From: a bacterium
Lineage (GTDB): Bacteria > Armatimonadota > Zipacnadia > Zipacnadales > UBA11051
Direction: 5' to 3'
NCBI GenBank assembly: GCA_021372615.1
Contig: JAJFUB010000055.1
Span: forward strand, 1-64,000
DNA: 64,000 nt
Positions within the stretch are counted from its first letter, which is position 1; every line of letters starts with the position of its first letter. The notes below the pieces were generated by a model. The model made no database searches. It saw nothing but the letters and a program-made list of their open reading frames with translations, and was not told the origin of the DNA. The position numbers were made by a program, and so were the translations under genes. Positions 8,891 through 57,906 of the stretch are shown here, piece after piece.

Positions 8891-8922
8891 TCACCTGATC
8901 CCTGCCTCACCAGCAGCCCACG

Positions 8923-12501: not shown

Positions 12502-12515
12502 AGCCCGGAGCAACC

Positions 12516-13817: not shown

Positions 13818-13822
13818 GCGAA

Positions 13823-13934: not shown

Positions 13935-13960
13935 GCCACCAACCAGAGAGTGAGCATACC

Positions 13961-14551
13961 ATGTCACGCGAAGCAACCATCAAGCGCGAGACGAAAGAGA
14001 CACAGATTGAGCTGTGGCTGAGTCTCGACGGCTCCGGCACGTACGAGATCGAGACCGGTGTTGGTTTCTTCGACCACATGCTCACTCACATCGCCAAGCA
14101 TGGGCTGCTGGACCTGAAGCTCAGGGCCACCGGCGACACGCACGTGGACGACCACCACCTGGTCGAGGATGTCGGCATCGTCCTGGGCCAGGCGCTGGCG
14201 CAGGCCATCGGCGACAAGAAGGGCATCAGCCGCTACGGCTGGGCGCTGTGCCCGCTCGATGAGGCCCTTGTCGGCGTGGCGCTGGACTTCTCGGGCCGCA
14301 CCCACCTGCAGTTCGACCTGCGCTTCCCGACCCAGAAGACCGGCACGTTCGACACCGAACTGGTCCTGGAGTTCTTCCGCGCGGTGGCCGCCAACGCCGC
14401 GATGACGCTGCACCTGTGGCAGCAGTCCGGTCTTAACAGCCACCACATCGCCGAGTCGGCCTTCAAGTCGTTCGGCCGCGCGCTGCGGATGGCCGCCGAG
14501 CTGGATGAGCGCCAGGCCGGGCAGGTGCCGAGCACCAAGGGGACGCTGTAG
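13961..14551 (+). CDS. hisB: Imidazoleglycerol-phosphate dehydratase
   Basis: Dehydrates imidazole glycerol phosphate to imidazole acetol phosphate. 196 residues, a monofunctional HisB without the phosphatase domain. The metal-binding signatures FFDHMLTHIAKHG, DTHVDDHHLVEDVGI and NSHHIAESAFKSFGRALR are intact. The start at 13961 follows AGAGAGTGAG and gives the family N-terminus (REATIKRETKETQIEL); the in-frame ATG at 13859 falls within the inverted repeat and is rejected. Confidence 0.97.
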   Translation: MSREATIKRETKETQIELWLSLDGSGTYEIETGVGFFDHMLTHIAKHGLLDLKLRATGDTHVDDHHLVEDVGIVLGQALAQAIGDKKGISRYGWALCPLDEALVGVALDFSGRTHLQFDLRFPTQKTGTFDTELVLEFFRAVAANAAMTLHLWQQSGLNSHHIAESAFKSFGRALRMAAELDERQAGQVPSTKGTL

Positions 14552-14601
14552 AAGGCCGAAGAGAGAAGACTGAAGATAGAAGACAGAAGTGAGAGCGCAC
14601 G

Positions 14602-15213
14602 ATGATCGCACTGATTGACTACGGTATGGGTAATCTGGGCAGCGTCCACAAGGCGCTGCTGAAGGTTGGCTGTGAGGTCGAGATCACGTCCGACGCGGCG
14701 GTCATTGAGGCGGCCGACGGCGTCGTGCTGCCCGGGGTCGGCGCGTTCGATGACTGCATGACCAACCTGGAGCAGGCCGGCGTCATCCCGGCCATCAAGG
14801 CTGCCATCGCGGCAGACAAGCCCTTCGTCGGCATCTGCCTGGGGCTCCAGGTGCTCTTTGAGTCCAGCGAGGAGGGCAAGCTGCCCGGGCTGGGCATTCT
14901 GCCGGGTAAGGTGGTGCGCTTCCGCCACAGCCTGAAGATCCCGCAGATCGGCTGGAACCAGATCACGATCCATGGCGACGTGCCGCTGCTGCGCGGCGTG
15001 GCGCAGGGCCCATGGACCTACTTCGTCCACTCGTACTATGCCGAGCCGGCCGATGACAGCCTCATCGCCACGACCACCGACTACGGCTACGAGTTCTGCT
15101 CGGCCGTCCGGCGCGGCAACCTGTATGCCAGCCAGTGGCATCCCGAGAAGAGCGCCGCAGTGGGCCTGCAGGTCCTGGCGAACTTCCGGAAGGCTGTGCA
15201 GGGGGAGCTATGA
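14602..15213 (+). CDS. hisH: Imidazole glycerol phosphate synthase, glutaminase subunit
   Basis: Class I glutamine amidotransferase that supplies ammonia to HisF. 203 residues. The N-terminus is IDYGMGNLGSVHKAL, the nucleophile elbow is VGICLGLQVLF and the His-Glu of the triad is in SQWHPEKS. Its stop overlaps the start of the GNAT gene (ATGA), so the two are translationally coupled. HisF, its partner, is encoded 1.8 kb downstream. Confidence 0.97.
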   Translation: MIALIDYGMGNLGSVHKALLKVGCEVEITSDAAVIEAADGVVLPGVGAFDDCMTNLEQAGVIPAIKAAIAADKPFVGICLGLQVLFESSEEGKLPGLGILPGKVVRFRHSLKIPQIGWNQITIHGDVPLLRGVAQGPWTYFVHSYYAEPADDSLIATTTDYGYEFCSAVRRGNLYASQWHPEKSAAVGLQVLANFRKAVQGEL

Positions 15214-15740
15214 ACCCGCCCGAGGAGTTCCGGACCGCCCGCCTGGTGCTGCGCCGCCCTCGTCTCGACGATGCTGAGGCGATCTTCGCCAGCTATGCGC
15301 AGGACCCGGAAGTCACGCGCTACCTGACCTGGCCCGCGCACACGGAGCTGGCGCAGACGCAGCGGTTCGTGGCCAGCCGTCTGGCCGCCTGGGAGTCAGG
15401 CGAGGCTTACGAGTGGGTCATCACCGTCCCGCCGCTGGACGAGGCCCTCGGCATGATCGCCCTGCGGGTGCAGGGCCACAAGGCCGATCTGGGCTACGTG
15501 CTGGCGCGCCCGTACTGGGGCCAGGGGCTGGTCACCGAGGCGGCGCAGGCCGTCACGGACTGGGCCTTCGCGCAGCCGGACATCTACCGCGTCTGGGCGG
15601 TGTGCGATGTCAACAACCCGGCCTCGGCGCGCGTGATGGCGAAGATCGGGATGTCGTACGAGGGCACGCTGAGGCGCTGGACGCAGCGGCCGGGGCACGA
15701 GGTCCCGTCCGACTGTCTGTGCTACGCCAGGACGAAGTAG
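15210..15740 (+). CDS. GNAT-family acetyltransferase, RimJ/RimL-like
   Basis: 176 residues. It begins RTARLVLRRPRLDDAEAIF and has the acetyl-CoA-binding region LGYVLARPYWGQGLVTEAAQ and the C-terminal AVCDVNNPASARVMAKIGM, all typical of RimJ/RimL/ribosomal-protein-alanine acetyltransferase-like enzymes. The substrate is not predictable. The ATG at 15210 overlaps the hisH stop by four bases, so it is part of the his transcript although it has no known role in histidine synthesis. Confidence 0.88.
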   Translation: MNPPEEFRTARLVLRRPRLDDAEAIFASYAQDPEVTRYLTWPAHTELAQTQRFVASRLAAWESGEAYEWVITVPPLDEALGMIALRVQGHKADLGYVLARPYWGQGLVTEAAQAVTDWAFAQPDIYRVWAVCDVNNPASARVMAKIGMSYEGTLRRWTQRPGHEVPSDCLCYARTK

Positions 15741-15759
15741 CGGCGCGATTCATCGCGCC
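15740..15759. repeat. Dispersed palindromic repeat, family D (copy 2)
   Basis: The core GGCGCGATTCATCGCGCC starts at the GNAT stop codon; the same core forms both arms at 6838-6908. Confidence 0.7.
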
Positions 15760-15770
15760 TTGCCTGCCGG

Positions 15771-15832
15771 TACGCCCGACACTCCTGTCGGGCGGTTCAC
15801 CGGACACGCGCCCGACAGGAGTGTCGGGCGTA
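15771..15832. repeat. Long perfect inverted repeat between GNAT and hisA
   Basis: The 24-bp arms at 15771-15794 and 15809-15832 are exact reverse complements with a 14-base loop. Each arm is itself partly palindromic (CCCGACA ... TGTCGGG). It lies 22 bases before hisA and could act as an RNA hairpin. Confidence 0.8.
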
Positions 15833-15854
15833 CCAACCGATACGGGAATCCGTC

Positions 15855-16577
15855 ATGATCGTCATACCTGCCATTGACCTGGCCGCCGGCAAGTGCGTGC
15901 GACTCCGCCAAGGCGACATGAACCAACAGACCGTCTACTCGGACAGTCCCGCCGACATGGCGCGGCACTGGGCGGACCAGGGCGCGGAGATCCTGCACGT
16001 CGTGGACCTCGACGGCGCCATGGGCGGCCGGTCGGTCAACCTGCCGGCCATTGAGGCCATCGTCGGGGCCATCTCCATCCCGGTCGAGCTGGGCGGCGGG
16101 CTGCGGACGGCGGACGATGTGCGGCGGGTGCTGGGCCTGGGTGTGCAGTGGGCCATCATGGGCACCAGCGCCCTGCGGCAGCCCGACCAGCTCAGGGCCG
16201 CGCTGGCGGAGTTCGGCGAGCGGATCATCGTCGGCATTGACGCCCGCGACGGCAAGGTGGCCGTGTTGGGCTGGACGGAGACCTCTGACATCAGCGCCGT
16301 GGACCTGGCGAAGCAGATGCAGGGCCTCGGCGTGCAGCGGCTGATCTGCACGGACATCGCGACCGACGGGATGCTCGTGGGGCCGAACCTCGAGAGCCTG
16401 CGCACGATCGCCGAGGCCGTGGACATCGCCGTCATCGCCAGCGGCGGGGTGAGCAAGCTCGAGGACATCGTGGCGCTGAAGGCGCTCGAGCCGCTCGGCG
16501 TCATCGGCGCGATCACGGGCAAAGCGCTGTATGAGGGCACACTCAACCTGAAGGCAGCCATCGCGGCGGCACGCTGA
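15855..16577 (+). CDS. hisA: ProFAR isomerase (phosphoribosylformimino-5-aminoimidazole carboxamide ribotide isomerase)
   Basis: Amadori isomerisation of ProFAR to PRFAR in a TIM barrel. 240 residues, normal. The acid/base aspartates lie in VIPAIDLAAGKCVRL and CTDIATDGM; phosphate-binding loops are VELGGGLRT, MGTSAL and IASGGVS. A short RBS is hard to define after the palindromic repeat. Followed by a small membrane-protein gene that starts 2 bases after the stop. Confidence 0.96.
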   Translation: MIVIPAIDLAAGKCVRLRQGDMNQQTVYSDSPADMARHWADQGAEILHVVDLDGAMGGRSVNLPAIEAIVGAISIPVELGGGLRTADDVRRVLGLGVQWAIMGTSALRQPDQLRAALAEFGERIIVGIDARDGKVAVLGWTETSDISAVDLAKQMQGLGVQRLICTDIATDGMLVGPNLESLRTIAEAVDIAVIASGGVSKLEDIVALKALEPLGVIGAITGKALYEGTLNLKAAIAAAR

Positions 16578-16579
16578 GC

Positions 16580-16975
16580 GTGCGGGTGGAATCCATGCAG
16601 TTGGCTCTGGAGCTGCTCGGGCTGCTCGGCGGATGTGCCGCGGTCGCGCTGATCGTGATCCTGGGCGGCGCGGCGCTGGTGCGGCGGTCTGCGCCGCGGC
16701 CCGCAACGGCATGGCGCCAGCGGTACCGAACTGCCTTCGCCATCGGGGCGGCGCTCGGGGCGCTGGCTGGCGTGGTGGTCACGTTCCTGGGCATGGCTGT
16801 CATGGGAGGGCTGCCAGCGCCATGGAACATCCTGGTCCTGCCGCTGGGCGGGCTGGCGGGCGGTGTCGCTCTCGGCACGGTTGCGGCAGTGCTCGTGGCT
16901 CTGGTACACGCGGCCAGCCGCCTTCGAGGCGGGGCCGCTGAGCCTGCGGGGCCGACGGCCACAGACCCGGACTAG
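16580..16975 (+). CDS. Small integral membrane protein, unknown function
   Basis: 131 residues with three hydrophobic segments at about 9-33, 50-72 and 80-110. It starts at a GTG 2 bases past hisA (an ATG lies five codons later), and hisF follows 56 bases downstream, so it is probably co-transcribed with the his genes. No recognisable family and no known role in histidine synthesis. Confidence 0.55.
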
Positions 16976-17031
16976 CCGCAGCCCTGACAGCCAATACAGT
17001 GACCCGCCGCGTGCGGGAGTTGAGGAGCCTC

Positions 17032-17835
17032 ATGCTAGCCAAACGCATCATTCCCTGTCTCGACGTGACCGGTGGCCGCGTGGTCAAGGGCGTCAAGTAC
17101 ATTGACCACGTGGACGCGGGCGACCCCGTCGAGCAGGCCGCCAACTATGACCGCCAGGGCGCCGATGAACTCGTCTTCCTGGACATCACCGCCTCCCTCG
17201 ACCACCGCGAGATCATGCTCGACATCGTCCGCCGTGTGGCCGAGCAGGTGTTCATCCCGTTCACCGTCGGTGGCGGTGTGCGCAGCGTCGAGGACATCCG
17301 CGAGATACTCAAGGCCGGGGCCGACAAGACCTCGATCATGACCGCGGCCATCAAGGACCCCGACCTGGTCAACCGCGGCGCCGAGCGCTTCGGCAGCCAG
17401 TGCATCGTCGTGGCCATTGACGCCAAGCGCGTCCCGCGCGAGGGTCGCGATGACAGCAACCTCGGCTACGCGCCCGACGAGGACATCGAGTGGGTCGTCT
17501 ACACCCACGGCGGCCACACGCCGACCACGGTGGATGCGCTCCAGTGGGCGCAGGAAGCCGAGGAGCGCGGCGCGGGCGAGTTCCTCGTCACCAGCATGGA
17601 CGCCGACGGCACCAAGGCCGGCTATGACATTGAGCTGCTCCGGCGCATCAGCGAGAAGGCCGGCATCCCCGTCATCGCCTCCGGCGGCGCGGGCAGCGTG
17701 GACCACCTGTACGAGGCGCTGACGCTGGGGAAGGCCGACGCTGTGTTGGCGGCGAGCATCTTCCACTTCGGCGAGACGACGGTGCAGGATGTGAAGCAGG
17801 AACTGAAGGCCAGAGGCGTAGACATACGGATTTGA
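17032..17835 (+). CDS. hisF: Imidazole glycerol phosphate synthase, cyclase subunit
   Basis: Uses PRFAR and ammonia from HisH to give IGP and AICAR. 267 residues. The N-terminus is [20 protein letters not shown] with catalytic Asp11, and the second catalytic Asp is in IVVAIDAKR. Phosphate loops are FTVGGGVRS and IASGGAGS. The ATG at 17032 follows TGAGGAG and matches the family start; an in-frame ATG at 16999 is ignored. Confidence 0.97.
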
Positions 17836-17840
17836 GGAAC

Positions 17841-18377
17841 GGAAGACAGGATGTAAGGATGGAAGGATGGGGAGGATACGGCAGAGGCCAACGGCATTGC
17901 CAGGGGGTAGGGGCAGTGGAGCACGAGGAGTTGACGGGGCGGATCATCGGGGTGTGCTATGAGGTGGCGAACGAGCTGGGGCATGGGTTCCTGGAGTCGG
18001 TGTACCAGAAGGCGCTGGCCATGGCCTTGGCGCAGGAGGGGCTGGCAGTGGCCCAGCAAGTGCCACTCAAAGTGTCCTTCCGTGGAGAGATCGTCGGGGA
18101 GTTCCTGGCTGACATTGTCGTTGAGGGCACCGTCATCCTGGAGCTGAAGGCCGTCTCCGCACTCGCGTCCGAACACAGCGCACAGCTCATCAACTACCTG
18201 AAGGCGAGCGGACAGGACGTCGGCCTGCTCGTGAACTTCGGCCGGCCGAGCATCGAGGTCAAGCGCTGCTGGCGCCCCAAAGTCGCCGTGCCAGAACAGT
18301 AGCCGGCCGTCAATCCGTTCATCCTTGCCATCCTTATATCCTTACATCCTGTTGCCGTTGCCGTTGCCGTCATCCTT
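17841..18377. mobile_element. Possible GxxExxY cassette flanked by AGGATG inverted repeats
   Basis: ACAGGATGTAAGGAT (17846-17860) is exactly repeated in inverse at 18338-18352, with further AGGAT runs outside and inside, bracketing one small ORF. The whole block separates hisF from hisI. There is no transposase. The palindrome-plus-ORF layout and a similar empty palindrome in the hisD-hisB gap suggest a non-autonomous mobile cassette. Confidence 0.5.
17916..18302 (+). CDS. GxxExxY-motif protein (PD-(D/E)XK nuclease-like)
   Basis: About 129 residues from the GTG at 17916, which follows GGGGGTAGGGG and matches the usual start ([17 protein letters not shown]). The diagnostic motif is GFLESVY. 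A nuclease-like core follows: [18 protein letters not shown] has the D...E-x-K arrangement of PD-(D/E)XK folds. The family is widespread, often in multiple copies per genome, with no established function. An ATG at 17832 overlapping the hisF stop would start inside the inverted repeat and is less likely. Lies between inverted repeats within the his operon. Confidence 0.85.
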
Positions 18378-18394
18378 TCCCCCTGAGGACTTCC

Positions 18395-18778
18395 ATGTCT
18401 GTAGTTGACGAACTCAAGTTCGATGCCAACGGCCTCATCCCCGCCATCGCCGTGGACGCGGAGACGGGTGAAGTGCTCATGGTTGCCTACATGAACCGCG
18501 AGTCCTTCCAGGCGACCGTGGAGACCGGCCATGCCACGTACTGGAGCCGGTCGCGGCAGCAGTTCTGGGTCAAGGGGGAATCGTCCGGCCATCTGCAGAA
18601 GGTAAAGTGGATCCGCACCGACTGCGACAAGGACACGCTGCTGCTCGGCGTCGAGCAGGCCGGCGTGGCCTGTCACACCGGCCGTCGCAGTTGCTTCTTC
18701 TACGAGCTGCGCGACGGGCAGTGGTGCGAGACCTGCGAGCCCGAGGTGGATCCTGACGAGATCTACCACCGCAAGTAG
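18395..18778 (+). CDS. hisI: Phosphoribosyl-AMP cyclohydrolase
   Basis: Opens the purine ring of PR-AMP. 127 residues, a monofunctional HisI without the HisE pyrophosphohydrolase domain. Zinc and magnesium ligands are in [17 protein letters not shown] (DCD) and [11 protein letters not shown]. The start is ATG 18395 after CCCTGAGGAC. hisE is not found nearby, so PR-ATP hydrolysis must be encoded elsewhere. Confidence 0.96.
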
Positions 18779-18785
18779 CCCCTGC

Positions 18786-21470
18786 TTGCTCCTGCTGGCG
18801 GCGTGCCTGGCCGCGGCCCTGGTGTCGCCGGTGGTCGGCGCGCCGGCGGATGCTCGGGCGCGGGCCCTGGCGCTCCTGCACCGCGGGCAGTATGCCGAGG
18901 CGGCGCAGGCCCTGGCGCCGTTGGTCGCCGCCCACCCCCGGGATGCCGACCTGCAGTACCGCCTCGGGGTCGCCCGCCAGCGCTCCGGCGACTTGTCGGG
19001 GGCGATCAACGCCTTCAACCGCGCCGCGCGCCTGCGCCCCAATGAAGCGGTGTATGCAGCGGCGCTGGCGCGTCTGTACGCGGAGCTGCCCCGGGCCGAC
19101 CGCGCCTCGTTCTGGTACCGCAAGCTCCTGCGCCTCCGCCCCAAGAACCCCAAGCTGGCCGAAGAGGCTGCCTCGTTCGTGCTGCAGCAGGGCAACCCCC
19201 TCGAAGCCGAACTCATCCTCAAGCAGGCCACCGCGGCCAACCCCAAAGCGCCCGAGCTGTGGCTGCTGCTCGCGCAGTGCTACCAGCAGATGAAGCTGGA
19301 CGCCGAGCAGGCCCGGTGCCTGGAGCAGGCCGCGCGCCTGCAGCCCGCGCAGCCAGACCAGCTCCGCAAGCTCATTGATCTGTACCTGCAGGCCGGACAG
19401 CCCGACCGCGCCCTTCCGTACCTCCAACTGGCCGTGCGCCGCCAGCCCCAGAGCGCCGCGCTGCAGGCCCGCCTGGCCGAGTGCTACCTCGCGGTGGACG
19501 ACCGCAGAGCGGCGGTAGCGGCTTACCGGACGGCGGCCCGATTGGCCCCCCGCGTGCCGCAGTACCAGTTGGTGCTGGCGCAGGTCCTGGGCGAGGAAGA
19601 CCCGGCCGAGGCCCTGCGCGCGTACGACGCCGCCTTCGCGCTCCAGCAGCCCCTGGCCGACCAGCTCCTGACGGCCTCGGCGCTGGCGGCCAAGGCCGGC
19701 CGCCCGGATGCCGCGCTGGGCTACCTGACCTGGCTGGTGGCCCTCACGCCCGGGGAGTTGGAGCCCCGCCGCATGCTGATCCAGGCCGCGCTGACCGAGC
19801 ATGACACCCCGACCGCGCTGATGCAGTGGCGCGAGCTGCAGCGGGCCGGGCAGCAGCAGTATGCCCTGGAGGAGGCCGAGTTGGCGCTGCGGCTCGGGGG
19901 GCGTGAGTGGGCGCTGACGCGCTTGCAGGAGGTGGCCGACCGGTCGGCGGGCGACGCCCTGCTGCAGGCCCGGCTGGCGTCGCTCTTCCAGCAGCTGCAC
20001 GACGCGCCGCGCGCGGAGATGCTGGCCCGGGCGGCGCTCGCGCGATCCGGGGGAGGTACGGCTGAGGACGTGCGCGCCACGCGGCTGTTGGCCGCCCAGG
20101 TGCTGCTGCAAGTCGAACAACCCGAGGCGGCCGAGCCCGTCTTCCAGGAAGTGCTGCAGGCTGCGCCCGACAACGCAGTGGCCCGGCGCAGCCTCGCCCT
20201 GTGCGCCCTGCAGCGCGGGCAAGTGCGGGTTGCATGGGAGCAACTGCGGCGCGCCGTGCCGGATCACCCGCGCGATGTGGAGACCATCGAGGCGTTCATC
20301 GAGGCCGCCGAGGCGGCCGACGAGATGGACGCTACGGCCCTGGTCTTCCAGGCGCTGCTGTGCGAAGCCCCCGACAACGCCGCGGTGCTGGACGGACTGA
20401 CGATGCTCTATCGCCGGCAGGGGGGGACGGTGCTGGCGGCCCGGCGCCTGGGCGATCTGGCCGACCGTCAGCCCCGCCAGGGCCTGCTCAACCTGGCGGC
20501 GGCGCGCGAGTTGGCCGCGGCGGGGCGGCGCCAGGAGGCGGCGGCAATCTACGAGCGGCTGGCCCGCGGGTCGGAGTTCACCGCCGCCGCCCGCGTGGGC
20601 CTGTGCCATGTGCTGCTGGCCCAGCAGCGGTACTCTGAACTGATCGCGGCCCTGGCCCGCCTCACCGGCCCACAGGCCATCGGAGCCGAGCCATACCGGC
20701 TCCTGCTGGCGGCCCGTAGCGATCTGGCCTTGCAGACGAGCGCGGACCTGAACCTGGCTGCGGTCGCCCAGGCGGCCGCCGACGTGGCGCTGGCCGACCC
20801 GGAGTCCGAGGCCTACTACCTGGCCCTGGCCGAGATGTACCTGGCGACACGCCAGGCGGACGCCGGGGTCATATTCCTGCAGACCGAGGCGACGCGGCGG
20901 GCCGTGACGGCCCCGGCTACTGTGGGTCTGACGCGGTTGCTGCGCCAGCTCGGGCGACCGCGCGAAGCGCTGGTCTGGCTCAACCAGACTGAGGGCGCCG
21001 CCGGCTCCCCCACCGGTCTGCTGGAGCGCGCCCAGTGCCTGCTGCAGGTCCAGCGCGTGCCCGAAGCCGGGCTCGCGGCCGAGCAGGTGCTGCAGATGAC
21101 GGCAGGACCGACGGACTATGGGGGCGCCGGTCTGGCAGGGGACAGCGAGGGGAACGGGCCGGGAGCGCGGGCCGCGGCGCACATGGTGGCCGCGGAGGCC
21201 TGCGCGCAGGGCTACCGCCCCGAGGAGGCGCTCTGGCACCTGGTGCAGGCCATCATGAACGGGGGGCCGCGCGAGCGCCTCACCTACCGCATCGTCGGCC
21301 TGTGCATCAACCAGCCCCTCAGCGAGACCGCGGTGCTCAACGCGCTGCAGCAGCTCTACGCCGCGGGGTTCACGGACGCCGCCCTCGGCATCGCCGATGC
21401 ACTCGTCGCCAAGCCGGGCTTCGGACGGCTGAAGCAGTGGGCGATGCAGCGCGCGGCCCGAGACCGGTAA
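18786..21470 (+). CDS. Large TPR-repeat protein, probably exported
   Basis: 894 residues made almost entirely of tetratricopeptide-like helical repeats (for example QYAEAAQALAPLVAAHPRDA, DLQYRLGVARQRSGDLSGAI). It begins with a hydrophobic stretch (LLLAACLAAALVSPVVGAPA) that looks like a signal peptide. The start is uncertain: TTG at 18786, 7 bases past hisI, lacks basic residues, and an upstream in-frame start inside hisI would add an Arg but uses no standard start codon. TPR proteins scaffold complexes; no partner is indicated. Confidence 0.75.
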   Translation: MLLLAACLAAALVSPVVGAPADARARALALLHRGQYAEAAQALAPLVAAHPRDADLQYRLGVARQRSGDLSGAINAFNRAARLRPNEAVYAAALARLYAELPRADRASFWYRKLLRLRPKNPKLAEEAASFVLQQGNPLEAELILKQATAANPKAPELWLLLAQCYQQMKLDAEQARCLEQAARLQPAQPDQLRKLIDLYLQAGQPDRALPYLQLAVRRQPQSAALQARLAECYLAVDDRRAAVAAYRTAARLAPRVPQYQLVLAQVLGEEDPAEALRAYDAAFALQQPLADQLLTASALAAKAGRPDAALGYLTWLVALTPGELEPRRMLIQAALTEHDTPTALMQWRELQRAGQQQYALEEAELALRLGGREWALTRLQEVADRSAGDALLQARLASLFQQLHDAPRAEMLARAALARSGGGTAEDVRATRLLAAQVLLQVEQPEAAEPVFQEVLQAAPDNAVARRSLALCALQRGQVRVAWEQLRRAVPDHPRDVETIEAFIEAAEAADEMDATALVFQALLCEAPDNAAVLDGLTMLYRRQGGTVLAARRLGDLADRQPRQGLLNLAAARELAAAGRRQEAAAIYERLARGSEFTAAARVGLCHVLLAQQRYSELIAALARLTGPQAIGAEPYRLLLAARSDLALQTSADLNLAAVAQAAADVALADPESEAYYLALAEMYLATRQADAGVIFLQTEATRRAVTAPATVGLTRLLRQLGRPREALVWLNQTEGAAGSPTGLLERAQCLLQVQRVPEAGLAAEQVLQMTAGPTDYGGAGLAGDSEGNGPGARAAAHMVAAEACAQGYRPEEALWHLVQAIMNGGPRERLTYRIVGLCINQPLSETAVLNALQQLYAAGFTDAALGIADALVAKPGFGRLKQWAMQRAARDR

Positions 21471-40057: not shown

Positions 40058-40081
40058 CCCCCCAAGCACGAGGTGAATCGC

Positions 40082-41164
40082 ATGACTTGTGACGTGATGG
40101 GAACCGCGCTGCCCGCCGTGTGGGTGGCCCTGGCCATGGGGCTGTTGCTCTGGCTGGTCCCCGAGCAGACCGAGGCCGCCGAAGAGATCGTCTGGACCGA
40201 CGCGCGCCAGCTCACCATCGAGGGCAAGGGCTGGACGGATACGGCCGCCTTCTACGACCGCCTGCCCGCGAAGGCCCAGGGCGTGGTGCGTCAACCCGTC
40301 TGGGACCTCAGCCGCGACAGCGCCGGCTATTCGGTGCACTTCCTCACCGACTCCCCCACGATCCGCGTGAAGTGGGACCTGCTCAAGCCGACGTTGGCCA
40401 TGGACCACATGCCAGCCACCGGCGTGAGCGGTGTGGACCTGTACGCACGGCGGGAGGATGGGGGCTGGCGGTATGTCGGCACGGGCCGTGTCACCAAGCA
40501 ACTGGGCAACGAGGCCACCTTCGCCAACCCCGGCGCCCGGGAGTTCGTGCTCAACCTGCCGCTGTACAACGGCGTGACCGCCGTGAGCGTCGGCGTCCCA
40601 GCCGGCAAGTCGCTCGCGCCGCTGTCGGCGCCGCGCGGCAAGCCCGTCGTCTTCTACGGCACCTCCATCACCCAGGGCGGGTGCGCCTCGCGCCCGGGCA
40701 TGGCCTACAGCGCCATCGTCGGCCGCCAGCTCGACGTCCCCATCATCAACCTGGGTTTCTCCGGCAATGGGCAAGGTGAGCCGGAGATGGCCGACCTGCT
40801 CGCCGAACTCGACCCGGCCGTCTACGTCTTCGACGCGCTGTGGAACATGAGTCCGGACTTCGTCAGAGAGCGGACGGCGCCGTTCGTGCGCAAGTTGCGG
40901 GCGGCCCACCCCACCACGCCCATCCTCCTGGCCGAGGACTGCACCGTCCGCAACACCATCCCCACGGCCAAGGGCAAGATCCTGCGCGACATCTTCGCTG
41001 CGCTGCAGCAGGAGGGCGTCACCGGCCTGTACTTCGTCTCCGCCGAGGGCATGATGGGCCCGGACGACCAGGGCACCGTGGACGGCTGCCACCCGACCGA
41101 CCTGGGGTTCATGTACCAGGCCGAGGTGTTCACCAAGGCCCTGCGGCCGATCCTGGGGAAGTAG
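40082..41164 (+). CDS. Secreted SGNH/GDSL-type hydrolase
   Basis: 360 residues. Signal peptide or anchor at about residues 6-33. A beta-sandwich N-terminal domain is followed by an SGNH esterase domain: block I PVVFYGTSITQGGCASRPG (catalytic Ser), block III LGFSGNGQGEPEM (Gly, Asn) and block V DGCHPTDLGF (Asp, His). Likely acts as a carbohydrate or acetyl esterase outside the cytoplasm. Starts 24 bases after the zinc-ribbon gene, so probably one operon. Confidence 0.85.
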   Translation: MTCDVMGTALPAVWVALAMGLLLWLVPEQTEAAEEIVWTDARQLTIEGKGWTDTAAFYDRLPAKAQGVVRQPVWDLSRDSAGYSVHFLTDSPTIRVKWDLLKPTLAMDHMPATGVSGVDLYARREDGGWRYVGTGRVTKQLGNEATFANPGAREFVLNLPLYNGVTAVSVGVPAGKSLAPLSAPRGKPVVFYGTSITQGGCASRPGMAYSAIVGRQLDVPIINLGFSGNGQGEPEMADLLAELDPAVYVFDALWNMSPDFVRERTAPFVRKLRAAHPTTPILLAEDCTVRNTIPTAKGKILRDIFAALQQEGVTGLYFVSAEGMMGPDDQGTVDGCHPTDLGFMYQAEVFTKALRPILGK

Positions 41165-41214: not shown

Positions 41215-42786
41215 CTAGCTGCGCCTGCCGAACGCGCGTCGCCAGTCCGATAGCACCTCGCGGTAGTGCTTGTCTGAGGAGTACCCGGAGCGCTGGAAGT
41301 CGTACTCCGCGCGCTCTGTCTGGTCAAGGAACCAGTTGGCAAACCCGTCGAGGTAGAAGTCCTCGGGCTCCTCCGGGAGCGCGAACACGCGGAGGTCGAG
41401 TATGGGCGACACGGTCTCGCGTACGCGACAATCCAGATCAGCGCACCAGTAGGCCAGCGCTGCATCCGCCCTGTACTGGCGGACGTGCGGTGCCATTGCT
41501 ACCAGCTCGGTGAAGCAGTCGACAGCCCGGTCGAGGTGTCCCAGTTCCAGGTTGAGGCTGGCCAGATGGTGCCAGAAGTTGGCCTCATGGAACTGCTCGC
41601 AGTGGCTTTCCAGGACGCCAAGAGCCTCAGTCGGCTGATCCAGATTCCCCAGGGCCACGGCGTAATCCACCACAATGTCGGCTGTCACTTCCTCGCGCCG
41701 CACCAGCTCTCCTAGGACGTGTGCCGCGTCGGCGTACCGGCCCTCGTTGGCATAGGCGAAGGCGCGCAGCGCCCGGACCTGCATGCGGTCTCCTGCTAGC
41801 ACAATGCGGCCTTCGTCAATGTCAGCGAAGACGCGCTCTACCTCTTCGGCAGGCTCCCCGCACAGGATCGAGAGCAGCACCACCCACGTGCGGGCCGCCG
41901 GGTCGGCCGGATCGAGCCGCATCGCCTCGCGGTAGAGCGCCAGGGCCTCCTGGTATGAGCCCTCCTGGCGGGCAACGTACCCCAGAGCTCCATACGTGTT
42001 CTCGTCCACGGAGGGGTGATTGAGTAGGGCCATCAGGGTTTCTCGCGCCTGGCGCAAGTCGCCGCATGAACTTTCGCAGACGGCCCTGACTACATAGGGA
42101 TAGTAGATACTGGTTGCAGCCTGAGGGAATTCGTACTCGCACATGGCGACGAAGAACGCTGCGCGTGCTCGGGCCCGGAGGAAATCCCCGGCCTCATAGG
42201 CTGCGACAAACTCGTCCCGAACGTTCATGAGGCGGGTGAAGACCGCCCTGTCGTGTTCCGCGTGCCGAGCGCGCAGGCCCCTGATCTCGTCATCGAAGCG
42301 CAGCATGAAGGGCAGGCGGGGGTCTTCGTTGGGCCGCGGCACGTAGTCGACGCGCATGTCTCGGCAGAGCTCCTGGACCAGCGCGTCGAGTTCTTCGGGC
42401 GAGAGCAAGTCCGCCTCGCGGCGGCGGATCGTCGCGAGTTCCCGGTAGGGAGGCTCCCATTGCTCGTCCGGCGGGCAACCGGCCACGGCGACGGGAATGA
42501 TCTGAAGCTGGTGCTCCGCCCGGCGGACCAGGGCGTGCTCGACCTCCAGTTTGGCATAGCGGGTGTTGAGGGCATTCGCCGAGACCATCGGCACAAAGTA
42601 GTCGCTCCGGTTGATCTGATTGCACAGGTAATCCGGCAAGGACGCTCCGCCCGGGATCTCCTGCGGCTCGTCGGCGTAGTTCCACACGTTCAGCGGTTGA
42701 GCCTGCAGCCGTGCGAGCAGGCGGCGCACTTCCTCCCGATCATCACTGGAGAAGCTGACGAACACGCGCGGCTCTGGGGCCGTCAT
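41215..42786 (-). CDS. TIR-domain protein with C-terminal TPR repeats
   Basis: 523 residues. TIR domain at about 5-130: RVFVSFSSDDREEVRRLLAR (strand A and box 1-like), INRSDYFVPMVSANAL and RYAKLEVEHAL, where Glu81 lines up with the catalytic Glu of NAD-cleaving TIR domains. A helical region follows, then TPR-like repeats from about 230 to 470 (YGALGYVARQEGSYQEALAL, HHLASLNLELGHLDRAVDCF). The start at ATG 42786 is fixed by the TIR N-terminus. It begins 17 bases after an unknown secreted-protein gene on the same strand. No SLOG, STAND or known Thoeris partner is adjacent. NADase activity is inferred from the retained Glu. Confidence 0.85.
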   Translation of the reverse strand: MTAPEPRVFVSFSSDDREEVRRLLARLQAQPLNVWNYADEPQEIPGGASLPDYLCNQINRSDYFVPMVSANALNTRYAKLEVEHALVRRAEHQLQIIPVAVAGCPPDEQWEPPYRELATIRRREADLLSPEELDALVQELCRDMRVDYVPRPNEDPRLPFMLRFDDEIRGLRARHAEHDRAVFTRLMNVRDEFVAAYEAGDFLRARARAAFFVAMCEYEFPQAATSIYYPYVVRAVCESSCGDLRQARETLMALLNHPSVDENTYGALGYVARQEGSYQEALALYREAMRLDPADPAARTWVVLLSILCGEPAEEVERVFADIDEGRIVLAGDRMQVRALRAFAYANEGRYADAAHVLGELVRREEVTADIVVDYAVALGNLDQPTEALGVLESHCEQFHEANFWHHLASLNLELGHLDRAVDCFTELVAMAPHVRQYRADAALAYWCADLDCRVRETVSPILDLRVFALPEEPEDFYLDGFANWFLDQTERAEYDFQRSGYSSDKHYREVLSDWRRAFGRRS

Positions 42787-42803
42787 GGCGCGAATCCTCC
42801 CGA

Positions 42804-43940
42804 TCAGCCGCCTGGCCGCGGAGCCAACACTGGCGGCGGAATCAGCACTGTCGGCGTGGACACGTCCGGCTCCCACCCCACCCCGGCCACAGAACGGATG
42901 AAGCTTGCGAATTGCTCGGGCGATGACGCCTTCACATGCCTGAGGAAGGCGGCATAGCGCATGGTGTTCACCAACGCACGGTAGACGGTCGGGTTGATGC
43001 CTTCGAGTTGCTTGACCGTGTCTGAGACTGGACCGTTGAGTTGCGGCAGGGGAATGGGCGTGCGGTCGGCATCGAGGCCCCAGAAGTACCAGATGGGATC
43101 TCCTGTCAGGCTCAGGGCTTGGCCGTTGAGGTCGAACGTCACGGTCTGGCCGAAATCGCAAATGACATACGAATGATGCACCCACTCGCCCCCAGGCATC
43201 AGCCGGTCCTTTACCGCACTCCAGAACTTGTCGTAGCGCTCCGTGTTGGCCTGGACGTCGGGCTTCATCTCTCCGTCACCCAGGATGTACTCGCCGTCCA
43301 GCTTGGGCAGATCACAGCAGTCCCGGGTCAGAACCAGCTGACCGTCCCGGTACAACCTCAGGAGCAGGGCATCAGCCTGGAAGAGCCTCAGCCCCAGAAG
43401 AGTGTCCTCGAAGTCGGCATGGTAGTTGATGATTCTCTCGCGACGCTCTCTGCGAGCTTTCTCGTCACTCTCGTTCTGGAGGTGACCGAAGAGTGTCACG
43501 CAAGAGCCCTCATCTTTCGCCGCAAAGCGCGCGATGGGTACGAGTTGCCAGTCCGGGATCAGAGCTGTGACCGTGGTCACTGTCCCCTTGCCGTCCGCCA
43601 GGACGACCTGCAGCCTCTGACCATCGGGGCGGTTCGCGTCATAGCTGAGGCCTGCCACTTCCCGGCCATTGGCAGGCGTCGCGACTCCGTCAAAGGCAAT
43701 GCCGCCAGTGCCCGCCAAGAGGTCCAATACCTCCTTGTCCACGATGCCCTGCTCAAAGCGGCGCAGGTTCGGAGAGAGATGCGGCCCACGAAGCGTGTGC
43801 GCAGGGGCGAAGGCAAGTGTCTGTCCCCCCAGTTGCAGTTTGGCCTGGCCCAAGGTTGGGAGTAGCGCCGCCAGGGCAAACAGCACGCCCAGGCATGGGC
43901 GTCGGAACACATGTCTCTGGCTGCCGGTGTGTCGGTCCAT
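42804..43940 (-). CDS. Secreted protein of unknown function, TIR operon partner
   Basis: 378 residues from ATG 43940, preceded by GGGAGGA. Signal peptide with RRPCLGVLFALAALLPTLGQA. The mature part is mainly beta strand (LQLGGQTLAFAPAHTLRG, AFDGVATPANGREVAGLSYD, GQTVTFDLNGQALSLTGDP) with a Cys pair (TRDCCDLPKLDG). I do not recognise the family. It lies 17 bases upstream of the TIR-TPR gene, on the same strand, and is likely co-transcribed. That pairing of an exported protein with a cytoplasmic TIR protein is unusual. Confidence 0.65.
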   Translation of the reverse strand: MDRHTGSQRHVFRRPCLGVLFALAALLPTLGQAKLQLGGQTLAFAPAHTLRGPHLSPNLRRFEQGIVDKEVLDLLAGTGGIAFDGVATPANGREVAGLSYDANRPDGQRLQVVLADGKGTVTTVTALIPDWQLVPIARFAAKDEGSCVTLFGHLQNESDEKARRERRERIINYHADFEDTLLGLRLFQADALLLRLYRDGQLVLTRDCCDLPKLDGEYILGDGEMKPDVQANTERYDKFWSAVKDRLMPGGEWVHHSYVICDFGQTVTFDLNGQALSLTGDPIWYFWGLDADRTPIPLPQLNGPVSDTVKQLEGINPTVYRALVNTMRYAAFLRHVKASSPEQFASFIRSVAGVGWEPDVSTPTVLIPPPVLAPRPGG

Positions 43941-44136: not shown

Positions 44137-46128
44137 ATGCAGGCTGAAGCACAACACCAAGCGGCTCTTGCCCCTCCTCACGCCCGTGGCGTCACGGGCC
44201 GCGCGGTCGCGCTGGGCCTGGTCAGCATCGTCGCGGTGATCCTGCTCATCCACTGGGCGGAGCTGATCCTCGGCAGCTCGCGCGGGCACAGCGCCATGGC
44301 CAACACCAGCATCCCGCTGGGGGCCTTTGCCTCGCTGATGCTGCTTGTCTCGGTCAACAGCCTGGTGGGCCGCTGCCGCCGCCGCTGGCAGCTCTCCTCG
44401 GGTGAACTGGTCGTCGTCTATGCCATGACCACCGTGGCCACGGTCCTGGCGTCCTCGGGGGCCATCCACTTCCTCGTGCCGGCCATGGCCGCCCCGCTGG
44501 GCTTCGCCTCCCCCGAAAACCGTTGGGAGACACTGTTCTTCCAGTACATCCCCCGCTGGATCGGCCCGGACGACCCCCGCCTGCTGCGGCACTTCTTCGA
44601 GGGCGGCGTCCCGGTGCCGGTGGGCCTGTGGTTCCGGCCGGTCACCATCTGGTCGGGCTTCGTCTTCACCTATGGTGCCTGCTGCCTGTCGCTGGTGCTG
44701 CTGCTGCGCCGGCAGTGGATCGAGAGCGAGCGCCTGACCTTCCCGACCGTCTATGTGCCCCTCAGCCTCACTGAGCCCGATGGCGCCTTCTGGCGCAGCA
44801 AGGCCGCCTGGGTCGGCATCGCCATCCCCTTCCTGATCGGCACGCTCAACACGCTGAACGTCAACTTCCCGTCCATCCCGAAGCTGGAGGTCCGCCGCAT
44901 AGACCTGTCCTCGCACTTCGGGGACCCTCCCTGGAACGCCATCGGGGGGCTGGCGATTTCCTTCTACCCCTTCGTGGTCGGCCTGGCGTTCCTGCTGTCC
45001 ACCGAGATGACGTTCTCGTGCTGGTTCTTCTACCTGATGACCAAGGTGCAGCGGATCGTGGGGGCGAGCTTCGGGGTGGCGCAGTGGGGCTCGGGGGGCC
45101 TGGCGCGCTTCCCGTTTGAGAACCACCAGGGCGCGGGGGCGTTCGTGGCGCTGGCGCTGCTGGCCCTGTGGATCGGGCGCAGGCCCCTGGCACAGACCTT
45201 CCGGGCCGCCTTCCACTCGGCGCTGGACCTGGGCCAGGGCGCGCCCCCGGAGCCGGGCAGCCGCCCCGATCGCGCCGCCCAATGGGCCGTCTGGGGCTTC
45301 CTGCTTAGCTTCGCGGCCCTGGTCGGTTTCTGCCGCGCGGCGGGGATGTCGCTCTGGACGCCTGTGGTGCTGCTGGCGCTGTCGCTGACCTACCTGGTCG
45401 CGGCCACCCGCATCCGCGCCGAGACGGGCAACGCGTGGCTCTTCGGCCCCGATGTGGACCCCCAGCGCCTGATGATCACCGCCGTGGGGGCGCGCCACAT
45501 ACTCCCCCGCGATCTGACCATCATGGCGTACCTGAACGCCATCTCCAGCTTCGACCTGCGTTGTGTCTCGATGCCCCACCAGCTCGATGCCTTCAAGCTG
45601 GCCGAGGTCCGCAAGCTGGAGCGGGGGCGGCTGACCGGGGCGCTCCTGCTGGGGCTGGCGGTGGGCATCCCGGTGGCCTTCTGGCTCGGGCTGGCCATCT
45701 GGCACAACATCGGGGCGCTGGCGAAGGGGGAGCCCTGGCGCACGATGATGGGCAAGCAGCCCTTCGACCGGCTACAGGGCTACCTCACCAACCCCCAGCC
45801 CGCCAACCTGATCGAGCTGGTGTTCGTGTCCGCCGGGCTGCTCTTCACCGGCTTCCTGTTCATCATGCGCACCCGGCTGCTGACCTGGCCCTTCCACCCG
45901 GTAGGCTACGCCATGGCCAACACCAACAGCATGGGCAGCCAGTGGTTCCCGTTCCTGCTGGCCTGGGCGGCGAAGACCGTGATTCTGCGCTACGGTGGCG
46001 CCAAGCTCTATCGCCGCGCCCAACCCTTCTTCCTCGGCCTCGTCGTCGGCGACTTCCTCAACGGCGCCCTCTACAGCCTCCTCGCCTGCTTCGTCAGCTC
46101 CATGAAGGTCTACCCGATCAACTGGTAG
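44137..46128 (+). CDS. Large polytopic membrane protein, DUF6785/OPT-like
   Basis: 663 residues with about twelve to fourteen membrane helices (for example AVALGLVSIVAVILLIHWAE and AISFYPFVVGLAFLLSTEMT). It resembles the DUF6785/DUF6784 family of oligopeptide-transporter-like proteins seen in Planctomycetes, Verrucomicrobia and Armatimonadota. Substrate unknown. Divergent from the TIR operon. The start at 44137 has only a weak upstream RBS. Confidence 0.6.
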   Translation: MQAEAQHQAALAPPHARGVTGRAVALGLVSIVAVILLIHWAELILGSSRGHSAMANTSIPLGAFASLMLLVSVNSLVGRCRRRWQLSSGELVVVYAMTTVATVLASSGAIHFLVPAMAAPLGFASPENRWETLFFQYIPRWIGPDDPRLLRHFFEGGVPVPVGLWFRPVTIWSGFVFTYGACCLSLVLLLRRQWIESERLTFPTVYVPLSLTEPDGAFWRSKAAWVGIAIPFLIGTLNTLNVNFPSIPKLEVRRIDLSSHFGDPPWNAIGGLAISFYPFVVGLAFLLSTEMTFSCWFFYLMTKVQRIVGASFGVAQWGSGGLARFPFENHQGAGAFVALALLALWIGRRPLAQTFRAAFHSALDLGQGAPPEPGSRPDRAAQWAVWGFLLSFAALVGFCRAAGMSLWTPVVLLALSLTYLVAATRIRAETGNAWLFGPDVDPQRLMITAVGARHILPRDLTIMAYLNAISSFDLRCVSMPHQLDAFKLAEVRKLERGRLTGALLLGLAVGIPVAFWLGLAIWHNIGALAKGEPWRTMMGKQPFDRLQGYLTNPQPANLIELVFVSAGLLFTGFLFIMRTRLLTWPFHPVGYAMANTNSMGSQWFPFLLAWAAKTVILRYGGAKLYRRAQPFFLGLVVGDFLNGALYSLLACFVSSMKVYPINW

Positions 46129-54350: not shown

Positions 54351-54656
54351 TTAGCCCCGCTCGATGCGGTACCCGAGCACGAGGATGGCCTTGAGGGTCT
54401 CCATGGCCGCGCTGCGGTCGTACTGCTTCTCTGAGTCGGGCAGGTCCGCGTAAGGCACGAGGCACGGGTGCAGCTTGCGGGCGTCGTCGCGTTGTGGGCC
54501 GTACTGCCACCCGTCGGCCATGCGCTGGGCGGCCCAGATGTCGTGGGCGTTCTCGGCCAGGTACTCGGTGAGGGCCACCAGCTCCTCGGGCAGGGCCACG
54601 GCTGAGGTATCCAACGGCTTGGGTTGGTAGGGCATTGCCTGCTCCAGTTCAGTCAT
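54351..54656 (-). CDS. Stand-alone RyR-domain protein
   Basis: 101 residues from ATG 54656 (MTELEQAMPYQ). Almost all of it is one RyR repeat as in ryanodine receptors: LAENAHDIWAAQRMADGWQY, GPQRDDARKLHPCLVPYADL, PDSEKQYDRSAAMETLKAIL, VLGYRIERG. It lies 49 bases after the AAA+/RyR gene on the same strand, so probably co-transcribed. Prokaryotic RyR repeats have been proposed, from comparative genomics, to sense nucleotide-derived ligands; nothing in this sequence proves that. Confidence 0.9.
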   Translation of the reverse strand: MTELEQAMPYQPKPLDTSAVALPEELVALTEYLAENAHDIWAAQRMADGWQYGPQRDDARKLHPCLVPYADLPDSEKQYDRSAAMETLKAILVLGYRIERG

Positions 54657-54705: not shown

Positions 54706-57700
54706 TCATTCCGCCCCCTCCTCGCTATCGCTACCTGGCTCGGGCCGGAACCGGACGGCCCTATAGCCGGCCACCTTGAGGATGTCCGGGATGGCCCGGA
54801 TGATGCGGTAGTCCTTCTCACGCTCGCTGAAGGGTAGCTGGGCCCAGTCGACCATCAGGGGATGCCGCTTGTGCTCGTTGTCCCGCTCGGGGGCATAGGT
54901 CCAGCCGCTGGCCAGGCGTTCGCGGTGCCAGCCGAGGTGCTCGGCGCGGGCCAGGCGGACCAGGTGCTTCTCGATGGCCTTGCGCAGGGTCTCCTGCCAC
55001 TTGTCGCTTTCTCCGGGAGCCAGGGGCTCGACGGCAAAGTCAATGAGTCCCAGGTGGCCCGGTATCCGCACTGCAGCGGCCAGGCTGGACTTCCTGTGGT
55101 CCTCGCCGAGATCCTCGTACGCCTTGCGACTCGCCTCCAGTTCCGCGTCCGGACCGCTCACCTGCCGCAGCCATCTGTCCTTCATCTGCTGCGGGAGGTA
55201 GCCCCAGTTGATCAGGCCGGCCAGGTCCTCTCGGGCGGGATGGCCGCGGAAGGCCTCGCGCGCGGTGAGTAGCTTCATGAACTCGTCGGCGACGGTCTCA
55301 CAGTCGAGCATGAACTCCGGGGGCAGGGCGGAGCGGTGCAGACGATCCCGCTCGCGGCTCAGGTCCGCGCCGCTTGCCTGGTGGCCGCTCGGCGACTCCA
55401 GGGGCCAGGCGGACTGATGCAGGTGCGCCTGTCTGCAGCCGCTGCACAGCACCCGCACGATCTTCTCGAAGGAGCGCGCACCGTTCCGGTACTCGGACAC
55501 CTGGAGCAGGGCGTCCAGCAGGCCGGGGTCCATCTCCAGGCGGTCGTCATCGCCCAGCTTGAGCAGGCTGCGCAGCAGTAGCGCGCGGCGGATGGGCCAG
55601 GTGAGGTCGTCGGGGCAGGCCGGGTCGCGCCGCCCGTTCGGCCCCAGCACGTTCAGGAAACCGTGTAGCCGCGAGACGAAGTCCGGCCCCTTGGCCAGCG
55701 TGAACGCCCGGTAGCGCGTGGCAGCCTCTTCGTACTCCTTCTCCTTGGCCTGCTGCTGCGGCTGTTCGAGCGCCGCCAGCTCCTCCGCTGTCGGCTTCCT
55801 CGGCTTCCGCAAGGCAAAGTCCACAAGCCTGTGGCAGGTGCCTCCGGCGAAGACGAAGATGCACTTGCCGATGGGGTGGATGACCTGCCCCTCCTGGAAC
55901 GTGCCATCCTGCATGGGCGCCAGCAGGTACTGCAGCCACCTGTTCTGCCCGGTGTCGAACTCATCCCAGAAAGCGACTGGCGTGATTCCCCGCAGGACTT
56001 CGTCACGCACGCGGTGGAAGGCCCCCACGAGTTCGGCGGGGTCGCTGAACTGCGACAGGTTGAACTGCAGCAACGGCACTTCCTTGCCCAGAATGGACTT
56101 CGCCAGGGCCTCTACCGCGAACGACTTCCCTGCCCCCGGGGGGCCAAAGACGCCGAGGCACAACGGCCGCTTCTGGACGCCGCCGTGCTCGTATTCGCGG
56201 ATCAGAATGTCCAGCGCGCGCAGGCTCTCGATCTCATTGCGGTCCACTGAGAACAGGGGGCCCAGGCGCAGGGCCGGCACCTCCGAGACGGCCTCCGGGC
56301 CGTAGATAGCGACCAGGTGCCCGAGGCCGGCCAGCGGTGCACAACCGGCGGAGCCGGGCCCCGACGGGGCGCCGGTGGCAGAAGCCGCAGTGCCGGACGG
56401 CTCCTCGAGGCTGGTCAGGATGGTCCACGGACGCTCTGTCGGCTGCGCGGGGACACGCACGATCTTGGGGGCGCTGTGTGTCCGGGCCAGCACCTGCCCC
56501 AACTCATACGTCGGGACGCCCGGGTGAGGGTCGGACACCCGGCCATGGCCCAGCACCAGCAGCTCACGTCGGGCCTTCAGGCCGGCGGCGATGCCCTCCG
56601 GCATGGCCCGCAGCAGCGTCTCCGGGTTCGTGAAGGGGCTCTTGCCCCTCGTCTCCTTGACCAGCCCGAGGTGGTGGCGCATCAGGTGATGGGCGATGCC
56701 GACGGTGAAGCACGTTTGGAAGCCGTAGGCCGTGCCGTCCACGGCGCGGGCGTAGTCCGCCTCCATCTCCTCGGGGGTGAAGACCAGGACGGCGTCGCTG
56801 ATCTCGCGGCGTCCCTCGGCGCCGTCGCGGCACGTTACCCACAGGGCCCCGGCGGACCCGTAGGTCACCACAGTGTGCGCCGCGGTCCGCAGCTCATCCC
56901 CGACCTCTGAGGCCTGCAGGCCGCGCAGCGTATGCTCGGTGCACCGCTCCCATGACAGGCGCCCGCCAATCTGGACATCCTCGCGCCGCAGGTCGCTCGC
57001 CGAGACGACCACGATCAGCCGGTTCGCCACCGGCCGCAGCGCCGGCCACAGATCGCCCCGGCACAGGGGGTAGCTCATCTTCAGCAGGTAGAAGCCCTTG
57101 CCCCTGGGGCGAAGGTCGGGCCACGGCACGCGTCTTCTCGGGGCGTGTCGGAAGAGCACTGCACCGTCGTCAATGATGGTGAGCACGGGCGGTCGGGGGC
57201 GCGGGTCGGCATGTGGAGTCGCGCGGCGAGTGAAAGTGAAGTCCTGGCGTTCGCGGTCCGTGGGGCCGTAGCCGAAATCCGGCTGTACGCGCCAGACGCG
57301 CTCTTCCTTGCCTTTCCCCGCCGGCCGCGCGACCCATACGCCATAGGAGCGCAAGTGTGAGGGGAGCTTCGCCTCCAGCCCCCGTGTTACCAGGTCCAGC
57401 TCCGCGGCATAGGCGGGCTCGGGTCGTGGCACGGCAAGCGCCTTAGGCTTGGGCAGAGCCTTCTCGCCATGGTCACGACGCCCGCGGTTCCTCTCCTGCC
57501 ATTCCTCGATGCCCCGCTTCCAGGCGAGCCCCTCCGCGTCCGCCGCCGCGCTCAGCAGGCGGTGTGTCAGTGCGGCGCCCCCCAGTTCCTGCGTGTAGAC
57601 GGTGCCGGGCTCGGCGAAGGACGTGGCGGCGGTCTTCACTCCCCCATAGAAGTGACAGTCGAGAACGATGTCCCCGGTCACAACAACACGCTCGGTCTTC

Positions 57701-57708
57701 TTGAGCAC
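54706..57708 (-). CDS. AAA+ ATPase with sugar-kinase-like N-terminus and two C-terminal RyR-like repeats
   Basis: 1000 residues from GTG 57708 (GGGAGG 9 bases before). About 1-310 resembles a PfkB/ribokinase-type fold: VVVTGDIVLDCHFYGG, LGGAALTHRLLSAAAD, RLIVVVSASDLRREDVQ and HTVVTYGSAGALWV, but the usual catalytic DTxGAGD motif is not seen. A linker follows. The AAA+ module has Walker A GVFGPPGAGKSF (about 520) and Walker B VAFWDEFDTG (about 580). The C-terminus has a degenerate RyR-like repeat (about 825-905: AYEDLGEDHRKSSLAAAVRI) and a full one (about 915-990: LGWHRERLASGWTYAPERDN, then HKRHPLMVDWAQLPFSEREK). A start at ATG 57801 would add 31 unsupported residues. Role unknown; sensor-ATPase in signalling or defence is the best guess. 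Confidence 0.8.
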   Translation of the reverse strand: MLKKTERVVVTGDIVLDCHFYGGVKTAATSFAEPGTVYTQELGGAALTHRLLSAAADAEGLAWKRGIEEWQERNRGRRDHGEKALPKPKALAVPRPEPAYAAELDLVTRGLEAKLPSHLRSYGVWVARPAGKGKEERVWRVQPDFGYGPTDRERQDFTFTRRATPHADPRPRPPVLTIIDDGAVLFRHAPRRRVPWPDLRPRGKGFYLLKMSYPLCRGDLWPALRPVANRLIVVVSASDLRREDVQIGGRLSWERCTEHTLRGLQASEVGDELRTAAHTVVTYGSAGALWVTCRDGAEGRREISDAVLVFTPEEMEADYARAVDGTAYGFQTCFTVGIAHHLMRHHLGLVKETRGKSPFTNPETLLRAMPEGIAAGLKARRELLVLGHGRVSDPHPGVPTYELGQVLARTHSAPKIVRVPAQPTERPWTILTSLEEPSGTAASATGAPSGPGSAGCAPLAGLGHLVAIYGPEAVSEVPALRLGPLFSVDRNEIESLRALDILIREYEHGGVQKRPLCLGVFGPPGAGKSFAVEALAKSILGKEVPLLQFNLSQFSDPAELVGAFHRVRDEVLRGITPVAFWDEFDTGQNRWLQYLLAPMQDGTFQEGQVIHPIGKCIFVFAGGTCHRLVDFALRKPRKPTAEELAALEQPQQQAKEKEYEEAATRYRAFTLAKGPDFVSRLHGFLNVLGPNGRRDPACPDDLTWPIRRALLLRSLLKLGDDDRLEMDPGLLDALLQVSEYRNGARSFEKIVRVLCSGCRQAHLHQSAWPLESPSGHQASGADLSRERDRLHRSALPPEFMLDCETVADEFMKLLTAREAFRGHPAREDLAGLINWGYLPQQMKDRWLRQVSGPDAELEASRKAYEDLGEDHRKSSLAAAVRIPGHLGLIDFAVEPLAPGESDKWQETLRKAIEKHLVRLARAEHLGWHRERLASGWTYAPERDNEHKRHPLMVDWAQLPFSEREKDYRIIRAIPDILKVAGYRAVRFRPEPGSDSEEGAE

Positions 57709-57906
57709 GGGTTCCACCCTCCCACTTCTCAATGCACAGCAGCAAACAGCCCCATATGCGTGTTCGCTTCGCCGGAGCCATACCCTAATCCTCCTCGCCA
57801 TGCTCGTGCAGGCGTCCGGCCTGCTACGGCGAAGTCACGGAGGCGCATCGTGCACAGCAGGGCCCCGCTGCGAAGCGCTACCGCTCGACCAGGGATGGGA
57901 ACGGCC

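Follow-up and report, generated by a model that had tools for sequence, protein, structure and literature searches.

This locus raises the question of whether a protein combining a TIR domain with TPR repeats (TIR-TPR) and the exported protein encoded immediately before it (SEC) act together, and for what purpose. In the window (the whole 64,000-nucleotide stretch that was analysed), both genes occur as given in a preliminary description, at the same positions on the minus strand, with the SEC gene first and 17 bases between the two (Table 1). The ATG of the TIR-TPR gene is preceded by a Shine-Dalgarno-like GGAGG, as is that of the SEC gene. The neighbouring genes, which encode a GDSL lipase (40073-41164) and a DUF6785 protein (44137-46128) according to Pfam, are located on the opposite strand, and the pair therefore looks like a separate transcription unit. 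The G+C content of the pair is 64% versus 68.6%, the second lowest among 205 windows.

Table 1. Positions of the SEC/TIR-TPR gene pair, its predicted parts and the RyR genes of the window
Feature	Position	Strand	Basis
SEC (exported partner), 378 aa	42804..43940	-	ORF, GGAGG before ATG; 14 family members aligned
Predicted signal peptide region, ~residues 1-33 of SEC	43842..43940	-	Kyte-Doolittle segment 15-33, then GQA
TIR-TPR protein, 523 aa	41215..42786	-	ORF, Pfam and alignment of relatives
TIR domain, residues 8-110	42457..42765	-	Pfam TIR_2 E 2.9e-17; phmmer to Cat1 E 1.8e-5
Glu81 codon, putative catalytic residue	42544..42546	-	Alignment to AbTIR/Cat1 Glu; invariant 10/10
TPR repeat region, ~residues 224-434	41485..42117	-	Several Pfam TPR models above threshold
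AAA ATPase with C-terminal RyR, 1031 aa	54706..57801	-	Pfam RyR E 4.5e-11, weak AAA
Stand-alone RyR (R12) protein, 101 aa	54351..54656	-	Pfam RyR E 4e-36 on longer ORF

The domain arrangement first proposed for the TIR-TPR protein, a TIR domain followed by C-terminal TPR repeats, was recovered with Pfam. TIR_2 scores 63.7 bits (cut-off 28), which places the domain within the TIR fold; the ThsB_TIR model scores 12.7 bits, below its cut-off of 21.2, and the PADLOC models for ThsB (E 2.5e-4) and SpbK match weakly. The closest PDB match of the TIR domain is Cat1. Glu81, the first E of KLEVEHAL (in RYAKLEVEHAL), had been suggested to align with the catalytic Glu of NAD-cleaving TIR domains, and phmmer pairs it with the Glu of both AbTIR (8g83) and Cat1 (9mud). 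The alignment of the TIR-TPR family has eight invariant columns, of which Glu81 is one, kept in all ten members. By profile and by putative catalytic residue, the TIR domain is typical of the bacterial TIR family. It is a putative NADase, and the conservation of the Glu fits such cleavage of NAD+.

SEC had been described as exported, beta-rich and unassignable. Its N-terminus resembles a signal peptide, with a hydrophobic segment (residues 15-33) ending at an A-x-A-like site (GQA), and all members of its family with an intact N-terminus open, by eye, with a hydrophobic stretch; the threshold of a hydropathy scan was passed by most of them and missed by the L021 protein and the first L052 copy. 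No transmembrane segment beyond the signal peptide was identified in SEC or TIR-TPR of the window. Searches of Pfam, NCBIfam, PADLOC, PHROGs and PDB sequences gave no match to SEC (one PHROG at E 0.37). Judged by sequence, SEC is a member of a previously undescribed family, of which 14 members share residues G79, G80, Y100, R109, W131, P135, G152, Y173, R185, D190, G221, G223 and E224, among others, with D130, H174, D262 and R334 near-invariant (window numbering). A stretch of ~110 residues present in other members is missing from SEC of the window. Type IX secretion sorting domains are present at the C-terminus of two of the 14 relatives, which are therefore probably surface proteins; SEC of the window has no such domain.

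Two AlphaFold2 models of SEC were built from four sequences (mean pLDDT 64.1 with pTM 0.68, and 63.7 with pTM 0.56). Rather than being beta-rich, the low-confidence fold is mixed alpha/beta. Neither model has a Foldseek match at E <= 0.001 in PDB or BFVD, a result which does not amount to a new fold, and the best VIA-align Z scores are 2.9 and 4.8. The structure search that had been recommended for SEC thus matched nothing and the protein stays unassigned, as first described.

Relatives of the pair are rare and distant. SEC was found in one of 291 genomes of its own phylum, that of the window; same-phylum matches at E 0.003-0.01 were taken as chance, being weak. A full-length relative of TIR-TPR is absent from 60 relatives, and a scan with the single TIR-TPR sequence gave no relatives, exact peptide patterns probably missing proteins so diverged. 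Scanning 84,980 species genomes with SEC only, three distant relatives were identified (26-36% identity), in a Bacteroidetes MAG (L021), a second MAG (L022) and Flavilitoribacter nigricans (L023), and a TIR-TPR gene comes directly after each of the three genes on the same strand. A profile of these three sequences and SEC of the window (A1) matched further members of the family in genomes G308, G345, G346, G357, G459, G644 and G798, and also another copy in G292. When 395 Bacteroidota genomes were searched with a profile, no member was added besides that of G293.

Altogether, TIR-TPR adjoins SEC on the same strand in nine of the 11 genomes possessing SEC (the window and eight of the ten others). 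As the SEC family was found without using TIR, this adjacency is not built into the search. The spacing ranges from -23 to +59 bases across loci, including 4-base overlaps, and the order is SEC followed by TIR in most loci, being reversed in the second G292 copy. G346 possesses a TIR gene between two SEC genes, one of which is cut by the contig end, and G798 has two SEC genes followed by one TIR gene. G308 has a SEC gene without a TIR-TPR gene, and the G357 contig stops upstream of its SEC gene. Only the SEC-family gene at L045 (9197-10549), which has no TIR gene nearby, clearly breaks the pairing; genes for a histidine kinase and a response-regulator-like protein are located near it.

For the converse search, ten TIR-TPR proteins were combined in a profile, with which 82 genomes of the phylum of G292 were scanned. 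The full-length TIR-TPR proteins were confined to genomes carrying SEC, namely G292 (two), G345 and G346 (614-682 bits; these scores are high by construction, the profile including the members of these genomes, which does not apply to the absence elsewhere). The remaining matches listed for the 82 genomes are partial TIR or TPR matches below 70 bits. Within this one phylum, full-length TIR-TPR thus occurs in 3/5 SEC genomes versus 0/77 others (Fisher p 1.1e-4). Furthermore, SEC and TIR-TPR co-evolve: for ten pairs the two trees have the same topology (distance correlation r 0.86, Mantel p 5e-5), and the pair of the window is nearest to that of G345 in both. The pairing of SEC with TIR-TPR is well supported as conserved across distant phyla. 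The preliminary description had advised a search for a conserved neighbourhood, which is strongly evident, and had considered that TIR-TPR might lack the partner in all relatives, which is contradicted by both the neighbourhoods and the converse search.

The explanation that best covers these observations as a whole, and which is held to be somewhat probable, is that SEC and TIR-TPR form a conserved envelope-to-cytoplasm signalling module, probably with an immune function. SEC would cross the inner membrane and act in the periplasm or at the cell surface as a sensor or guarded object, the role of sensor being suggested by its predicted location and its pairing. The cytoplasmic TIR-TPR would answer the state of SEC through a signal crossing the membrane, probably by way of the TPR repeats and an intermediary. 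The TIR domain would then cleave NAD+ at Glu81, causing NAD+ depletion or producing a cyclic ADP-ribose signal, which in some relatives may be read by an RyR membrane protein encoded next in the operon. Defence against phage, a predator or contact attack would be the likely use. The preliminary description, which had suggested that the pair could be an envelope-sensing immune module, is thereby largely upheld in its observations and partly supported in its interpretation.

The RyR domain (PF02026) of this last step occurs in two proteins encoded in the window, with scores of 123.6 bits (54351-54656) and 43.3 bits (54706-57801), both above the cut-off of 27.4. Their genes are on the same strand, that of the 101-aa protein following that of the 1031-aa AAA protein, and are the only RyR matches in the 6.4-Mb genome. 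They are located 10.4 kb from the pair; the chance of finding the sole RyR locus at less than 11 kb is ~0.3%. Genes on the opposite strand separate them from SEC/TIR-TPR and they are outside the operon; the two proteins are possible functional associates of the pair. The 101-aa protein is a very strong match to the repeats of animal ryanodine receptors.

In two Bacteroidota operons (L051 and L052), the third gene, 31 and 35 bases past TIR, respectively, codes for a membrane protein that carries RyR at its C-terminus. The L051 protein also possesses TrkA_N (RCK type) and is homologous to the L052 protein over ~620 residues. Both (L051 10753-12678; L052 13286-15151) have N-terminal transmembrane segments, a TrkA_N/RCK-like region and RyR. 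At L044, a RelA/SpoT-TPR-RyR protein is encoded 228 bases past TIR, and a second RyR gene is located on the same 59-kb contig. RyR genes were identified in seven of the 11 SEC-family genomes, that of the window included, and are located on other contigs than the pair in G345, G346 and G357. They were not found in G291, G293, G459 and G308, and RyR therefore cannot be a universal component. Among genomes of the G292 phylum, RyR genes are present in 4/5 SEC genomes versus 13/77 others (p 0.006, from few genomes and with phylogeny ignored).

It has been described that phage RyR-domain (R12) proteins bind or cleave 2'/3'cADPR via residues H75, W78, H100 and D117 of RyDEP (PMC13232231, 2026 preprint). 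The matching H, W, H and D ligand residues are kept in both RyR proteins of the window and in those of L051 and L052; in the RyR of L044, Asn replaces the second His. RyDEP is a phage anti-defence protein, whereas the RyR domains described here are bacterial and either make up a protein by themselves or are joined to AAA, RelA/SpoT or membrane RCK-like parts.

A link of the RyR genes to the pair is suggested by these positions, and a tentative reading, which is rather doubtful, makes of it a three-part second-messenger circuit, with SEC as sensor, TIR-TPR as cyclase and an RyR-domain protein as receptor or effector, for instance an RCK-like membrane protein gated by 2' or 3'cADPR. For the window, the distant AAA-RyR and stand-alone RyR proteins would be the receptor or a signal-removing part. 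The SEC-TIR-RyR order of L051 and L052, the RyR genes of L044, the nearness of the sole RyR locus to the pair of the window, the conserved ligand residues and the binding of 2'/3'cADPR by R12-domain phage proteins (PMC13232231) argue for such a circuit. Against it stand the four genomes lacking RyR, the three with RyR on other contigs and the 13 pair-less genomes that also possess RyR, and the RyR domains may instead degrade or sequester the signal. A receptor axis, in which the SEC sensor would act on a TIR-TPR cyclase whose cADPR gates the RyR RCK-like membrane protein, is considered unlikely; if true, it would be a prokaryotic counterpart of cADPR-ryanodine-receptor signalling, coupled to envelope sensing.

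TIR-TPR might also be a suicide NADase only, emptying the cell of NAD+ and killing it with no diffusible signal, SEC then being the trigger or guarded object. This account, possible but not favoured, is consistent with the presence of the putative catalytic Glu, with the lack of an obvious third effector gene at most pair loci and with the best PDB match being Cat1, a TIR protein that depletes NAD+ according to PMC12162218, but the RyR membrane proteins in two operons point to a signal. The RyR operons favour a cyclic signal in at least some members; depletion alone is also possible.

TPR proteins are often chaperones or assembly factors. A housekeeping, non-immune role, in which TIR-TPR would be a scaffold or regulator for the export, surface assembly or stability of SEC, suits the tight co-evolution and overlapping genes of the pair as well as the type IX sorting domains in two SEC partners. 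It is nevertheless improbable, as the invariant Glu81 would be superfluous in such a role and the spread of the pair is patchy and partly linked to mobile elements, with TIR-rich surroundings. That SEC is an exported toxin used in conflict between cells, with TIR-TPR for cytoplasmic self-protection or regulation, would suit the conserved polar residues of this secreted and in some cases surface-anchored family, but is most improbable, since neither a toxin family nor a delivery domain was found, and the TIR protein resembles an effector rather than an immunity protein.

Known bacterial TIR systems have mostly been described as detecting threats inside the cell. The SEC/TIR-TPR pair looks like an undescribed system by which something happening at the cell surface raises an alarm inside the cell. 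A TIR enzyme tied genetically and in evolution to SEC would mean that bacteria can use NAD+-based alarm signalling to respond to events at their surface. The SEC family and its bond to TIR are new, whereas TIR-based NAD+ signalling is already known. A search of the literature did not find the pair described; earlier mention of it, or of RyR-TrkA proteins, elsewhere is possible. Furthermore, the operons with RyR membrane proteins would offer a direct bacterial test of RyR domains as receptors for TIR-made cADPR, the question of PMC13232231.

Among known systems, Thoeris (ThsB TIR and ThsA) is similar in that a TIR protein would convert NAD+ into a signal, and different in that TPR repeats and an exported partner belong to the pair only. 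An assignment to Thoeris was rejected, as no ThsA (SIR2-SLOG or macro) was identified beside the pair among the Pfam-scanned neighbours; no SIR2 or macro protein was found among the scanned neighbours of the pair in the window or at other loci. Cat1, a CRISPR-associated TIR protein, is the best match of solved structure and has its Glu aligned, but possesses a CARF sensor where the pair has TPR repeats, with no CRISPR genes seen nearby. SpbK, to which PADLOC matched TIR-TPR weakly, is a single TIR NADase defence protein; it is not known to have a TPR region or an exported partner gene (PMC12847820). Predicted NTP-dependent conflict systems of multicellular prokaryotes share with the pair TIR effectors, TPR, membrane-proximal parts and conserved neighbourhoods, while the pair itself is without a STAND, MoxR-vWA or EAD part, and term searches of PMC7159879 and PMC8195603 found none resembling it.

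For the envelope-to-cytoplasm module, an immune purpose may be indicated by distribution and surroundings. No SEC relative was identified in plasmid records (queried with SEC of the window), phage records (queried with the L022 protein) or viral contigs, which neither supports nor excludes defence. The patchy distribution and low G+C content of the pair suggest horizontal transfer. The L050 copy is surrounded by integrase, relaxase and coupling-protein genes, and further TIR genes are located beside the L044, L047 and L051 copies. The rare and patchy spread, the low G+C content, the mobile genes of L050 and the nearby TIR genes together suggest a putative defensive role.

Several other genes were noted around the pairs. 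At L050 (6683-7066), a gene 305 bases past TIR-TPR codes for a small protein matching PDC-M50A, a candidate defence family of PADLOC. L044 of G292 (2979-18949) is a dense island with two SEC/TIR-TPR pairs and two more TIR proteins. It also encodes the RelA/SpoT-TPR-RyR protein, as well as a phosphofructokinase-like protein of 789 aa whose long N-terminal extension is possibly TIR-like. In the Bacteroidetes MAG, genes for an FtsA/MreB-like actin-family protein (L021 3081-4400) and a large TPR protein lie upstream of the pair.
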